A stretch of DNA of 64,000 nt from Psychrobacillus sp. INOP01. Its GTDB lineage: Bacteria > Bacillota > Bacilli > Bacillales_A > Planococcaceae. Of the stretch, positions 8,523-12,559 are shown piece by piece (the stretch's first letter is position 1; each line of letters opens with the position of its first letter). Location of the stretch: assembly GCF_018140925.1 (NCBI RefSeq), contig NZ_CP073315.1, positions 1,674,001 through 1,738,000 of the forward strand, written 5' to 3'. The translations under genes were made by a program, and so were the position numbers. The notes beneath the pieces are model-generated. The model searched no databases. It was not told the origin of the DNA and saw nothing but the letters and a program-made list of their open reading frames with translations.

Positions 8523-8797
8523 TCGGACTGTAACAACATGAAAGAACGATCAGACTTGTATACACTAGTAACTCCGAGAAAATTGCCCAAAACTAAAACC
8601 CTGGCAACTTGTCATTTTTTCGTTGCGTCATTGCTAAACTAAGAAAGTTACACTGAAATAGTGTTGTATTTTAGTGCTTTTCCATCATTACTTTCATAAT
8701 GAATGCTTTCTATGTTTTTCTTACTAGAATATGGTATCTTATTTATATAATTGGATTTGTTTTCCTTTTCATTGGCTTAGGAGGGGGTGTAGATTAG
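8523..8797 (+). promoter_or_regulatory. Control region before the TPR regulator
   Basis: No gene is visible here. A putative promoter has TTACTA (8721-8726) and TATAAT (8746-8751), spaced 19 nt. Upstream are two short inverted repeats, ACACTGAAATAGTGT (8650-8664) and CATTACTTTCATAATG (8686-8701), that could bind a regulator. A hairpin between TTGCC (8583-) and GGCAA (-8611) followed by T-rich DNA may end the exporter transcript. Confidence 0.4.
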
Positions 8798-10084
8798 ATG
8801 AACCTAGGACAATTGATCAAGTTAGAGCGACAGAGACAGAATATAAAGCAAGAGGCATTGGCTATTGGTATTTGTGTCCCTTCTTACTTGAGCAGAATTG
8901 AAAACGGATTAGTCATTCCAAGTGAAGACATAAAACATCATATTCTGATGAGATTAAATATTTCTTTAGACTCGTTGAATAGCAATCAAAATGAAAAAAA
9001 GATTGTTCAGTTTAAATTACAGTTCAAGCAAGTACTAAATTCTCGAGATAAAAAGTTGGCTAAAGAGCTTTTTTCTGAAATTCATCTTTATATCGTGGAA
9101 CATCCGCTAGAGGAAGAAAGACTAACGCTCCTTTTATTAGAAGCTCGCTTGATGCTTATGTTACCTGAAGCATGGGATATGAAAAGTAATGTCTACATTT
9201 TAGAAGAATTCAAAAAAGAAATGTCGATTGAACAGTTGTTTTATCTCTACACAATTCAAGGTATTACCGCATATCAAGATAATCAGTTTAGCCAAGCCTC
9301 TCATATTTTTAAAGAAGTTTTTCAATTGATAAAAGGCTTTCGAATGGAAGACTGGGAGATGGCAGAACTATATTACATATCTGGGTTATCTCTTTTATCT
9401 GAATCTCGCTACATTCTAGCTATCGATTATGTAAAGGAAGCCATTTCCTATTTCAATCAAGAGATTTTAATCGAACGATCACTTGAGTGTTTAATAATCC
9501 TTGGGATTGCACAAAAGAATACCGGTCTCTTAAAGGAAGCCCTCGCTACTTTTGAAAGGGCGAGAGATATCAATTCAAAAATAGAATCCTCTGAGTTCAA
9601 TGGCATGATTGAGCATAATTTAGGCTCTTGTTACTCGCTACAAAAAGACTCTCATCAAGCATTGCAGCACTTTTTTTATAGTTTAGATGCAAAGCATGGC
9701 CCTAATGATAAAGTTGTGACTATTTTATCTATCTTGAAGGAATATCACAAAAATGGTGATTTACAGAATGCATTAGTATGGTTGCAAAAGGGTCTAGAGA
9801 TTTCTGAGCATCTATCTAATAGCAAAAAGGAACTTTATACAAACCACTTCTCCGTATATGGAGCGATATTACTGGAGAAACAAGAGACTATCGCTATTTT
9901 CAAGAAAGCTTTGGATTATTTCGGTGGTAAGCAGGACTATAAAAACTGTATGATTTATTGCCACGTTTTAGCTAAGCGATTAGCTGAAACTAAACAATAT
10001 AAGCAAGCGTCAATTTACTACGATTTAGGTTTTCATTTTCATTTGAAGCTATCAAAAGTATCTAGTTGGGAGGAATTGTCATGA
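8798..10084 (+). CDS. HTH-TPR transcriptional regulator of the RRNPP (PlcR/NprR/AimR-like) type
   Basis: A 428-residue cytoplasmic regulator. Residues ~4-58 are an Xre-type helix-turn-helix (LGQLIKLERQRQNIKQEALA, then CVPSYLSRIENGLVIPSED); the remainder is a helical array with tetratricopeptide-like repeats, for example the region of SQASHIFKEVFQLIKGF, then KEALATFERARDINSK and QYKQASIYYDLGFHFHL. This is the architecture of the RRNPP family, which bind re-imported peptides in the TPR groove. A strong site (GGAGGGGGTG) precedes ATG 8798. Its stop overlaps the start of a 40-codon secreted-peptide gene in an ATGA arrangement, as for cognate pheromone precursors such as PapR and NprX. It is too distant in detail for me to name the subfamily, and its target genes are unknown. 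Confidence 0.85.
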   Translation: MNLGQLIKLERQRQNIKQEALAIGICVPSYLSRIENGLVIPSEDIKHHILMRLNISLDSLNSNQNEKKIVQFKLQFKQVLNSRDKKLAKELFSEIHLYIVEHPLEEERLTLLLLEARLMLMLPEAWDMKSNVYILEEFKKEMSIEQLFYLYTIQGITAYQDNQFSQASHIFKEVFQLIKGFRMEDWEMAELYYISGLSLLSESRYILAIDYVKEAISYFNQEILIERSLECLIILGIAQKNTGLLKEALATFERARDINSKIESSEFNGMIEHNLGSCYSLQKDSHQALQHFFYSLDAKHGPNDKVVTILSILKEYHKNGDLQNALVWLQKGLEISEHLSNSKKELYTNHFSVYGAILLEKQETIAIFKKALDYFGGKQDYKNCMIYCHVLAKRLAETKQYKQASIYYDLGFHFHLKLSKVSSWEELS

Positions 10085-10203
10085 AAAAAGTTGTATTTGG
10101 GGTTCTACTTTGTTTCGTTCTATTCGCACTACCGCTTTTAAGTTCAAACCATCTTGCAGAAGATGACAAGCCAAAAATCACTTCTGTTGGCGAATTTATC
10201 TAA
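10081..10203 (+). CDS. Small secreted peptide, candidate signal precursor for the TPR regulator
   Basis: A 40-residue reading frame whose ATG overlaps the regulator's stop (ATGA). GGGAGG lies 7 nt before the ATG, an excellent ribosome site inside the upstream gene. The product has MKK, a hydrophobic core (VVFGVLLCFVLFALPLL, 4-20) and a polar tail (SSNHLAEDDKPKITSVGEFI). That is the layout of PapR and NprX-like propeptides, exported by the Sec system and processed to a 5-10 residue C-terminal signal taken up by an oligopeptide permease. By analogy the active part would lie within KITSVGEFI. Processing, import and binding are inferred; a terminator follows 28 nt later, closing a two-gene operon. 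Confidence 0.8.
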   Translation: MKKVVFGVLLCFVLFALPLLSSNHLAEDDKPKITSVGEFI

Positions 10204-10231
10204 ACTGAAAATCAGATTTAGTGAAACATAA

Positions 10232-10264
10232 AAACGAGTCCTCCTCAAAAGATGGACTCGTTTT
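10232..10264 (+). terminator. Terminator of the regulator/propeptide operon
   Basis: AAACGAGTCC pairs with GGACTCGTTT across a 12-nt loop, followed by T residues; it may also end the opposing gene. Confidence 0.75.
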
Positions 10265-10304
10265 ATCTGTTAAATATATTAAATACTATTAGCTTTAGGA
10301 ACTC

Positions 10305-10619
10305 TTATTCAACCGCCACTTCTTCATCCACAATAATATGCTGGCTGTATACCTCTACAAATTCCAAGGTTTCCTCAATATTGTCGACAAGCTCAAAGAC
10401 GTCGAGAATCATTACGAGCTTTATCGTCGTTTCTTCTCCAAAAATGTTTTTATAGGTGATATCTTTATAATGTGCCTTTACTAGTGGATCAACATCCTCT
10501 ATTTTTGCAGCGCGTATGATATTAATGGTCTCTTCATAGATTTTGTTAGACACGGTTTTGGATAACGAAATGTGTTCAAACAATAATTTAACTGAAAAAA
10601 TTTTATACATTGTGCTCAC
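10305..10619 (-). CDS. DUF4288-like small protein
   Basis: A 104-residue acidic soluble protein without signal or membrane segment. The order of motifs, an opening LLFEH, then YEETINIIRAAKIEDVDPLV, YKNIFGEETTIKLVMILDV and FVEVYSQHI, resembles the DUF4288 family as I remember it, whose function is unknown. AGGTGAGCAC precedes the ATG. It faces the regulator/propeptide operon across a shared terminator and is transcribed toward it; no functional link is evident. Confidence 0.6.
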   Translation of the reverse strand: MSTMYKIFSVKLLFEHISLSKTVSNKIYEETINIIRAAKIEDVDPLVKAHYKDITYKNIFGEETTIKLVMILDVFELVDNIEETLEFVEVYSQHIIVDEEVAVE

Positions 10620-10741
10620 CTCTTACTTATAACTCTATTATGTGAGCACTTGGAATGCTATATATTTCATGTGTGAAAGTGTCGCAGGAAATATGCACTT
10701 AAACCACATTTTTTGTTCTTACTTTCATCGTTTTTGTTAGT

Positions 10742-12559
10742 TTATATATTAAACTGACTTTCATATAGCTCGGAGTAGAAACCTTTTTGTTTCAGTAGCT
10801 CTGCATGTGTTCCAACCTCGATTAATTCACCATGGTGAATGACTAAGATTTTATCTGCGTTTTCAATCGTTTTTAAACGATGGGCTATGACAAAACTAGT
10901 ACGTCCTTCAGAAAGTCTATTGAGCCCTTGCTGAATATCTATCTCCGTTTTCGTATCGATGCTTGAAGTTGCTTCATCTAGGATTAGTATATCTGAATCT
11001 GCTAAAATGGCACGAGCAATCGCTAATAATTGGCGCTGTCCTTGACTTAAATTAGACCCATTCCCAGCAATCTGCGTGTCATACTTATCAGGTAAATGCT
11101 TGATAAACCGATGAGCAGATGCCAGTTTAGCAGCTTCTATTACTTCCTCATCAGTTGCCTCCAGTCTACCGTAGCGAATATTTTCTAAAATGGAGCCTGA
11201 AAACAGAAAGGTATCTTGTAAAACAATACCAATTTTTTCACGAAGCTTACTTATTTGATATTCACTGATGGACCTCCCATCGATTTTGATGTTTCCAGAG
11301 TCTAATTCATAAAAACGCATAAGCAAATTAATAATTGTAGTTTTCCCCGATCCTGTTGGACCTACTAAAGCAATCTTTTCTCCTGCTCTAGCCTCGAAGC
11401 TAATATTCTTCAAAATCGGTTTTCCAGTATCATAAGAAAAGTGAACTTCGGAAAATGTAACGTCCCCTTTTAAAGTATCTATTGTAAGTGCGTTCTCCTG
11501 GTTTTGAAGATCCGGAGCTTCATCCATAATTTCAAATACTCGCTCAGCTCCTGCTATAGCAGACTGAAAGGTATTCAATAAAGTTGAAAGCTGATTAATT
11601 GGTCTAAAGAATTGTCTTGAATAATTAACAAATGCTGCAATTATACCGACTGTCGCCAATTCTTGTACTGTCATCACTGCCCCAATTCCAATAATTAAAG
11701 CAAGACCTAAATTGTTGATAAAGTTGTTGATAGGTCCTAGAAATCCCGATACAGTATCAGCAGCAGTTGCTGAGTGACGAAGTCGTTCATTAACTATCGA
11801 GAACTTGTTGAAATTCTTTTCTTCTTGCCCAAAAAGGGTAATTACTTCATTTCCTGAAATGGCTTCTTCTATAAAACCATTTAGCTCACCTAAATCACGT
11901 TGTCTTTTGATGAAGTTGCTACTACTATAGGTGATTATCTTTTTCGTTGTGAAAATAACTAATGGAACCACTAACAGTGACACTATAGCCAACACCCAGT
12001 TAAGCATAAACATCGCTATCGTTACACCTGTCACCATCATTATAGTAGAAATAATTTGAATCACACTTTGACTTAATGCGTTATTCAAACTTTCAATATC
12101 ATTCGTAACGCGACTCATAAGGTCTCCATGCGTACGTTTATCGAAAAACCGCAATGACAGAGTTTGAAACTTTTCATATAAATCCTGGCGTAGTGACCTA
12201 ATTGTTTTCAAAGACACTCGAACCATTAAAAAGTTCTGTAGCCAAGTAAACATAGCAGCTGCCGTGTACACAATTGCTAATATTACTAAGAAACGTAGTG
12301 TTCCGTCCATATCCTTTGGAATTATATACTCATCAATGGTGACACCAATCATATAAGGAACCAACAAGTTTAATAAAGTAGAAATTACAACCAATATAAT
12401 TGAAACAACAATAGCAATTTTTTGTTTCTCCATATATCGCCAGATTCGTTTTATCGTACCCTTTTTATCTTTTGCTTTCTCTACCGGTCCACCAAATCCT
12501 CTTGGGCCTCTTGCACGACCTATTGCATTAGAGGCTGGTTGAGCTGGAGCTTTACTCAT
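10742..12559 (-). CDS. Heterodimeric ABC exporter, subunit with consensus catalytic residues (YfiC-like)
   Basis: A 605-residue half-transporter with six transmembrane helices (~40-330) and a C-terminal ATPase. Walker A is GPTGSGKTT, Walker B ILILDEATSS with the catalytic glutamate, H-loop FVIAHRLKT, but the signature is LSQGQRQ instead of LSGGQ. The N-terminus has a low-complexity RGPRGFGG stretch, as in YfiC/EfrB-type subunits. The start is ATG 12559, whose first 8 nt overlap the end of the partner gene, implying translational coupling. It supplies its Walker motifs to the consensus ATP site, completed by the partner's intact LSGGQ. Probable role: extrusion of drugs or lipophilic compounds under PadR control. 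Confidence 0.88.
   Translation of the reverse strand: MSKAPAQPASNAIGRARGPRGFGGPVEKAKDKKGTIKRIWRYMEKQKIAIVVSIILVVISTLLNLLVPYMIGVTIDEYIIPKDMDGTLRFLVILAIVYTAAAMFTWLQNFLMVRVSLKTIRSLRQDLYEKFQTLSLRFFDKRTHGDLMSRVTNDIESLNNALSQSVIQIISTIMMVTGVTIAMFMLNWVLAIVSLLVVPLVIFTTKKIITYSSSNFIKRQRDLGELNGFIEEAISGNEVITLFGQEEKNFNKFSIVNERLRHSATAADTVSGFLGPINNFINNLGLALIIGIGAVMTVQELATVGIIAAFVNYSRQFFRPINQLSTLLNTFQSAIAGAERVFEIMDEAPDLQNQENALTIDTLKGDVTFSEVHFSYDTGKPILKNISFEARAGEKIALVGPTGSGKTTIINLLMRFYELDSGNIKIDGRSISEYQISKLREKIGIVLQDTFLFSGSILENIRYGRLEATDEEVIEAAKLASAHRFIKHLPDKYDTQIAGNGSNLSQGQRQLLAIARAILADSDILILDEATSSIDTKTEIDIQQGLNRLSEGRTSFVIAHRLKTIENADKILVIHHGELIEVGTHAELLKQKGFYSELYESQFNI

Follow-up and report, generated by a model that had tools for sequence, protein, structure and literature searches.

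Does a regulator gene whose stop codon overlaps the start of a 40-codon frame form a peptide-signalling pair with that frame, and what would such a pair control? The question arises in a 64,000-nucleotide stretch of the genome of Psychrobacillus sp. INOP01 (one contig, 4.30 Mb), referred to here as the window, in which a preliminary description had joined a 428-residue Xre/TPR regulator to the small frame by an ATGA overlap and had proposed an RRNPP-type regulator with a secreted propeptide. Both open reading frames were found exactly as described: the TGA stop of the regulator overlaps the propeptide ATG at 10081 (ATGA), and the ORF at 10081-10203 encodes MKKVVFGVLLCFVLFALPLLSSNHLAEDDKPKITSVGEFI, with the ribosome site TGGGAGGAATTGTC immediately 5′ of the ATG and a Sec-type signal segment that was recovered by hydropathy (3.2 over 12 residues). 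Co-occurrence of a propeptide with 87 of 109 related regulators, a codon signature, purifying selection on the small frame, a five-copy precursor, the matching of receptor and peptide clades and a Rap/NprR-type fold agree with the proposal, and we put the probability that the locus encodes an RRNPP-type peptide quorum-sensing pair of NprR architecture at about 0.85. Confidence is high that the pair is real and moderate that its circuit is local.

Table 1. Features of the locus, in window coordinates
Feature	Position	Strand	Basis or context
Whole unit: regulator, propeptide, DUF4288-like gene and two putative operators	8523..10732		Between two convergent ABC-transporter genes
Putative operator 1, GAAAGT-N41-ACTTTC	8643..8695		103-155 nt 5′ of regulator start
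HTH-TPR regulator/receptor, 428 aa, NprR-like architecture	8798..10084	+	Pfam, profile, AlphaFold model, Foldseek
W-E-E-L codons near regulator C terminus, forming the propeptide Shine–Dalgarno (GGGAGGA)	10067..10078	+	Codon counts
Propeptide gene of 40 codons, with MKK at the start, a hydrophobic signal segment and a polar tail	10081..10203	+	Sequence, conservation, pN/pS
Predicted signal core DKPKITSV	10165..10188	+	L022 repeat unit, Pro column, position-wise conservation
Inverted repeat with A/T tracts, likely terminator common to propeptide and DUF4288-like gene	10231..10264		Read from sequence
DUF4288-like protein gene, 104 aa, probable target	10305..10619	-	Pfam near cut-off, co-occurrence with regulator
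Putative operator 2, GAAAGT-N40-ACTTTC	10675..10726		56 nt 5′ of DUF4288-like gene

The inverted repeat at 10231..10264 (arms AAAACGAGTCC and GGACTCGTTTT, loop of 12 nt) was not listed by a scan that allows loops of 3-8 nt.

The small frame is a conserved gene

Propeptides were called by a 12-residue hydropathy of at least 2.2, a Shine–Dalgarno match of at least 4/6, a start between -6 and +25 nt of the regulator stop and a length of at least 34 codons. By the same criteria, a Shine–Dalgarno-led hydrophobic ORF follows 2 of the 53 window ORFs of at least 150 codons, namely the pair itself and one other case that we took as chance, and after shuffling of the downstream DNA in blocks of two bases, the same ATG opened a frame of 34-90 codons with a hydropathy of at least 3.0 (observed, 3.2) in 11 of 20,000 trials. 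The architecture by itself is uncommon, not unique, and is insufficient alone to call a gene; we count the small frame as solid because it is conserved. It is kept in 11 of 12 Psychrobacillus loci, always at -4, with nine ATG starts, GTG in L014 and TTG in L022. In L016 (P. antarcticus) the regulator frame is open and the propeptide has an in-frame stop in its signal segment, the core still being recognisable. Mean nucleotide identity among five close orthologues falls from 81% inside the small frame to 44% in the following 100 nt, and the frame has a pN/pS of 0.17-0.38 in all 10 pairs (regulator, 0.09-0.21), so that evolution without codon constraint, which the preliminary description had named as a sign against the pair, was not found.

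A family search of 261 genomes gave matches at E 1e-30 in 72 of them and 109 regulator places, all of which were read. A comparable propeptide lies directly 3′ of 87 of these related regulators, and 22 of the 109 have none by the above criteria; the alignment of the 87 propeptides contains one invariant proline column (87/87) and M-K-K at 90% or more. Loss of the small frame where the regulator is kept, a second sign named beforehand as counting against the pair, therefore applies in part: it is seen as the broken frame of L016 and among the 22 regulators without a propeptide, whereas 11 of the 12 Psychrobacillus loci keep the frame.

Most related regulators carry W-E-[DE]-L at or beside the C terminus. 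Where a propeptide follows, the Glu codon of W-E is GAG in 74 of 74 regulators, which gives the Shine–Dalgarno TGG-GAG (sequence TGGGAGGA); where none follows, it is GAA in 12 of 14 and GAG in two (L016, with its broken frame, and L076), and GAG accounts for 836 of the 3317 other Glu codons of the regulator genes (one gene counted twice, L050/L060). The 21 of 109 regulators without W-E near the end were left out of this codon count. The Fisher value for GAG against propeptide presence (p 4e-13, uncorrected for kinship) overstates the independent evidence, because the 14 propeptide-less W-E regulators fall into few clades. With 74 of 74 set against 2 of 14, the W-E motif is thus kept regardless and the synonymous choice tracks the small gene, a pattern that supports, at the level of sequence, translation of the propeptide from a ribosome site encoded within the last codons of the regulator. 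Conservation and the codon evidence together rule out a chance ORF.

Paralogues and related regulators

Among the named relatives from the regulator search, seven of eight are Psychrobacillus and the eighth is Filibacter. The INOP01 genome itself holds two more paralogues with small frames 3′, L002 ending SENETPRPTSIENKFI and L003 ending SGEEFPPILQNSNTNQS. The latter (C1:1557887-1559098), the third HTH-TPR paralogue, has a 59-codon frame with a GTG start that ends GEEFPPILQNSNTNQS and is like the EE[LF]PPPLAP repeats of a Mesobacillus plasmid. Genus g12 (L060, L065, L067, L070, L071, L076, L077) has two regulators in tandem, the first without a propeptide by the criteria and followed by an apparent terminator, the second with a propeptide, in the same order in L071; the arrangement suggests a single pheromone read by two receptors, or an eavesdropping receptor. 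A clade of nine regulators without a propeptide by the criteria (L091, L093, L101, L104, L105, L106, L109, L110, L111) ends WEDL(S/T) or WQDL, with GAA or CAA codons.

The INOP01 genome encodes four oligopeptide-binding proteins with uninterrupted frames that pass the SBP_bac_5 cut-off, and a further oligopeptide-binding protein gene (G000:C1:2514353-2516041) has two in-frame stops and is an apparent pseudogene. Searching this genome with the NprX family gave no match, and the control gave none either.

Putative operators and the neighbouring gene

Upstream regions of 14 aligned orthologues contain an inverted repeat, GAAAGT...ACTTTC, before the regulator, recognisable in 14/14, with both arms exact in nine and variants in L014, L015, L016, L018 and L011. 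Operator 2 is exact in both arms, at span 52, in 8 of 12 loci; neither the exact pattern nor a relaxed scan found a copy near the DUF4288-like gene in L014, L015/L006, L016/L007 and L018/L009. Within the window, the exact repeat occurs twice against 0.19 expected. A profile built from 21 sites scored operator 2 at 40.3 bits and operator 1 at 39.2 in the INOP01 genome, and the next unrelated place at 16.2, in a search that scored 150 of 8000 first-look candidates and had both top sites in its training set. Across 19 genomes, the exact pattern gave 67 matches, 16 of them at the unit, as a pair in each of 8 genomes, and the reversed control gave 66. A wide regulon was rejected, since the 51 of 67 exact matches off the unit are no commoner than the reversed control and no third site stands above noise; a degenerate regulon is possible.

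Similar spacing recurs in the wider family. Upstream of 107 regulators, GAAA...TTTC pairs with spans of 51, 52 and 53 occur in 23, 18 and 15 cases against about 1.2 each in block shuffles (spans of 30, 38-40 and 43 likewise lie above the shuffles, less strongly), and a pair with a span of 51-53 precedes 55 of 108 regulators, including the paralogous Psychrobacillus clade. The promoter scan found 8 promoters against 9.3 in shuffles and listed no forward promoter before the regulator. We take a conserved TATGGTATCTT-like stretch downstream of operator 1 as the -10 region; the position of operator 1 upstream of this presumed -10 weakly suggests that the peptide-bound regulator would activate.

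An orthologue of the regulator (at least 67% identity) was found in 12 of 19 Psychrobacillus genomes, six have a best match of 28-29%, and one has none. The DUF4288-like gene is present in the same 12 genomes, at most 1.4 kb downstream of the regulator (about 1.3 kb away and not directly adjacent in G001 and G007), and in 0 of the 7 others, and both genes occur in all seven named Psychrobacillus loci. Its product scores 25.3 bits against Pfam DUF4288, just below the cut-off of 27, and its model (pLDDT 73.9) had no PDB match at E 0.001; we claim no function from the fold. The site is empty in G004 and G017, where the flanking ABC genes are neighbours with about 70-85 nt between matches, and in both genomes homology of the flanks runs up to 8522, to begin again at 10733 in G017 and at 10749 in G004. 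The other five unit-less genomes, whose best match to ABC1 is at 53-55% or falls outside the limit used, are uninformative on the empty site. Gain and loss of the unit both fit, and no mobility gene was seen inside it. The signalling pair comes and goes with one neighbour gene, which it probably controls. As had been noted, two ABC exporter loci flank the pair; a part for them in the system was rejected, as they are inconstant neighbours (the 5-kb flanks searched gave no ABC1 in L005 and no ABC2/ABC3 in L009).

These observations bear on a rather unlikely alternative, in which the pair is real, but the repeats serve another regulator and the DUF4288-like gene is merely a linked neighbour. Another factor could bind the GAAAGT/ACTTTC repeats: the link between regulator and repeat is indirect, operator 2 is not exact in 4 of 12 loci, and about half of the family is without the 51-53 span. 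Control by the regulator encoded here is favoured over this, however, by the own-genome profile, which stands out solely at the two unit sites, by the similar arm spacing upstream of paralogues at unlinked loci, and by the regulator and the DUF4288-like gene being together in 12 of 19 genomes and both absent in 7 of 19.

Receptor domains, fold and contact residues

The regulator scored over the Pfam cut-offs for HTH_3 (26.0 bits, cut-off 23), TPR_12 (45.4, cut-off 30.1), TPR_1 and TPR_2, and the family alignment contains invariant HTH residues. A profile of 57 family members matched Rap3T (1.5e-33), RapH, pLS20 Rap and NprR (1e-31), in a search in which engineered TPR proteins score as well or better and one ranks first. 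Profile positions 65-421 were matched on 4gpk. The AlphaFold model (22 sequences; pLDDT 88.8, pTM 0.82) comprises the HTH and 18 helices at 62-418, and among the best 50 of 1620 Foldseek matches RapI (TMt 0.76), pLS20 Rap and RapJ are on top, with apo-NprR at ranks 19 and 25 (TMt 0.71 and 0.76; alignment identity 18%). Domain layout, profile matches and fold all suggest the Rap/NprR clan. Three hallmarks of the RRNPPA superfamily were found, namely a TPR ligand domain of 5-9 repeats, an N-terminal HTH (a mark of all members but Rap) and an adjacent precursor (its export signal by hydropathy), as was the NprR–NprX layout of an HTH with nine TPRs in about 420 aa (428 aa here).

PMC4970707 lists the residues through which NprR contacts Spo0F and the peptide and forms oligomers. 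In the window regulator the Spo0F contacts D107, Y118 and Y223 are replaced by L104, E115 and I223, and the peptide contacts R126, W167, H201, N306 and D309 by E124, F164, S201, D304 and V307. NprR E188 aligns with M188, adjacent to a nearly invariant E187, where the alignment is ambiguous; the counterpart of the dimer tyrosine Y410 is Y408, at a position that has Y in 40 and F in 16 of 57 sequences. The TPR asparagine N274, invariant in 57/57, aligns with NprR N275, which we take to touch the peptide. Mafft misplaced NprR W79, the NprR chain being without the HTH, and that row was left unused. In a FastTree tree with the TPR part of NprR only, NprR branches outside the regulator family.

A bifunctional NprR orthologue, which without peptide would restrain sporulation via Spo0F and with peptide would activate genes, is quite improbable on this evidence. 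The HTH and nine-TPR layout is the same, the profile and fold matches include NprR and Rap, E187 stands nearly invariant beside the E188 position, and Y408 equals NprR Y410; yet D107, Y118 and Y223 and the five peptide contacts are replaced, NprR falls outside the family in the tree, and the operator search gave no wider regulon. A plain transcription factor would be the likeliest role of the regulator, because most of the tested NprR contact residues are replaced. Its NprR-like architecture probably goes with an NprR-like mode of action, and control of Spo0F by the same contacts is disfavoured.

The predicted signal peptide

The preliminary description had favoured the C-terminal residues (tail ending KITSVGEFI), whereas the conserved core comes before the final residues. 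Over 86 tree-placed pairs the commonest core is [DE]-[EQD]-x-P-[RKE]-[IPLV]-[TF]-[SK], with the proline in 86/86, and the L022 precursor consists of five copies of IQDKP[DE]ITS[IT]N, a unit around DKPDITSIN. Because L022 repeats this unit, we place the window core at DKPKITSV, probably the signal, with an acidic residue before it; a signal-peptidase cut between HLA and ED, ahead of the core, is plausible. The counterpart in the paralogue would be ETPRPTSI. In a plasmid relative from Mesobacillus foraminis (L113, 2763-3176), the HTH-TPR gene precedes a 137-aa precursor in which EE[LF]PPPLAP occurs six times.

The tail had been described as unlike the mature peptides LPFEF, SKPDIVG and SAIRGA, which did not hold: K-P-x-I is common to the window core and NprX, given as SKPDIVG in PMC5641580. 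The shared lysine may be coincidence, because NprR branches outside the regulator family.

Peptide and receptor distances over the 86 pairs correlate with a Mantel r of 0.64 (at most 0.13 in 2000 permutations), and kinship among the sequences makes this test and the p values overstate the evidence. The correlated distances show that the pairs share their descent; this alone shows no residue-level coevolution. Receptor and peptide appear to diversify together, as the sequences support. It is hardly credible that the small ORF encodes a small secreted or membrane protein co-translated with the regulator and not a ligand: a hydrophobic N terminus and translational coupling suit any small membrane protein, and the L016 regulator persists with a broken small frame, but the polar core alone is multiplied in tandem (L022, L113), the proline is invariant (87/87), receptor clades match and the nearest natural folds are peptide receptors.

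Comparison with known systems

The pair resembles NprR–NprX in its HTH with 18 helices as nine TPR-like pairs, in the order of receptor then small Sec-type propeptide, and in a core of the form x-P-[charged]-[hydrophobic] (K-P-D-I in SKPDIVG, K-P-K-I in the window); it differs in having 18% identity to apo-NprR, most Spo0F and peptide contacts replaced, and another neighbour and operator. Against NF033801 and NF033800 the window propeptide reached 13.0 and 12.7 bits over the signal part only, below the cut-offs of 33 and 75; NF033801 was reached at E 0.1 by 7 of 87 propeptides and an unrelated surface-protein model by 17, so weak matches say little. According to PMC9765709, NprR occurs in 21 genera as the broadest subfamily and all 17 atypically long NprR precursors carry repeated peptides, and pairs outside Bacillus and multi-copy precursors are therefore expected. 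An HTH-TPR gene on a plasmid of Priestia koreensis FS-1 is paired with a propeptide ending SEEEFPEPTVAQVLI, close to the SENETPRPTSIENKFI of L002; PMC10075063 places two NprR–NprX systems on FS-1 plasmid(s), and the SEEEFPEPTVAQVLI gene may belong to one of them.

With Rap–Phr, the locus shares the nearest natural folds, the best natural profile matches and a Phr-type precursor, and tandem precursors are described for Rap–Phr in PMC11343458. Rap is without an HTH (PMC9765709), whereas the window regulator has HTH_3 over the cut-off. PlcR–PapR likewise combines HTH and TPRs with a small secreted precursor, and PlcR has five TPRs (PMC12700828, section 7). The PlcR chain, with 293 aa, aligned to the profile over 2-274 only, whereas the window regulator has 428 aa and 18 helices. 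AimR–AimP (arbitrium) couples a receptor gene and a peptide gene to a local target, and the window locus is similar in this logic. No AimR chain was among the matches listed (best 60 of 67; all 32 of the profile search; Foldseek best 50 of 1620), no phage or viral-contig relative of the regulator was found at the limits used, the locus lies between chromosomal ABC genes, and 2 of 87 propeptides matched the AimP family model at E 0.1. PlcR–PapR and AimR–AimP had been offered, with NprR–NprX, as systems of this architecture; given the partial PlcR match, the lack of an AimR chain among the matches listed and the lack of a phage relative, we rejected both as nearest kin.

AloR–AloP of Paenibacillus also shows several receptor–peptide pairs per genome, some without a peptide (PMC7425212); it belongs to another clan than NprR and Rap according to PMC12700828, section 7. 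Further RRNPP clusters are described in PMC10075063 (section 8) and PMC12700828 (section 7). The taxon names looked for are absent from the main texts of PMC9765709, PMC10075063, PMC12700828 and PMC11343458, and the cluster may be in their supplements. In the literature searched, no paper joined Psychrobacillus with RRNPP and none had the word DUF4288, and names from the Psychrobacillus family (Sporosarcina, Planococcaceae) were absent from the RRNPP, NprR and quorum-sensing-peptide papers among the matches listed.

Proposed circuit and implications

For the RRNPP-type pair we propose that the 40-residue precursor would leave by Sec, the signal being predicted by hydropathy, would be cut near the junction of HLA and EDDKP and would be trimmed to a short peptide around DKPKITSV. 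This peptide would re-enter via an oligopeptide permease and bind the TPR groove around N274, upon which the receptor, in dimeric or higher oligomeric form, would bind the 52-53-bp GAAAGT/ACTTTC repeats differently. It would thereby act on its own operon, as feedback, and on the one convergent DUF4288-like gene, so that the circuit looks local and not a global regulon. A more ambitious and tentative reading, which we consider possible but somewhat doubtful, is a quorum-sensing cassette complete in itself, about 2.2 kb long, in which receptor, pheromone, a single DUF4288 payload as sole outside target and two matched long-span operators would form a cellular counterpart of arbitrium in logic, together with a family-wide long-span operator plan whose arm spacing of about five helical turns would fit a tetramer or a DNA loop.

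The pair is ordinary in kind and well defined; its codon signature, long-span repeats and DUF4288-like partner were not met in the available portions of the cited papers. The locus adds a set of receptor–peptide pairs across a bacterial family, with a readable peptide core, and provides a codon-level marker for receptors with a live propeptide. It offers a compact test system of one pheromone, two candidate operators and one candidate payload, and the DUF4288-like protein would gain a regulatory context.
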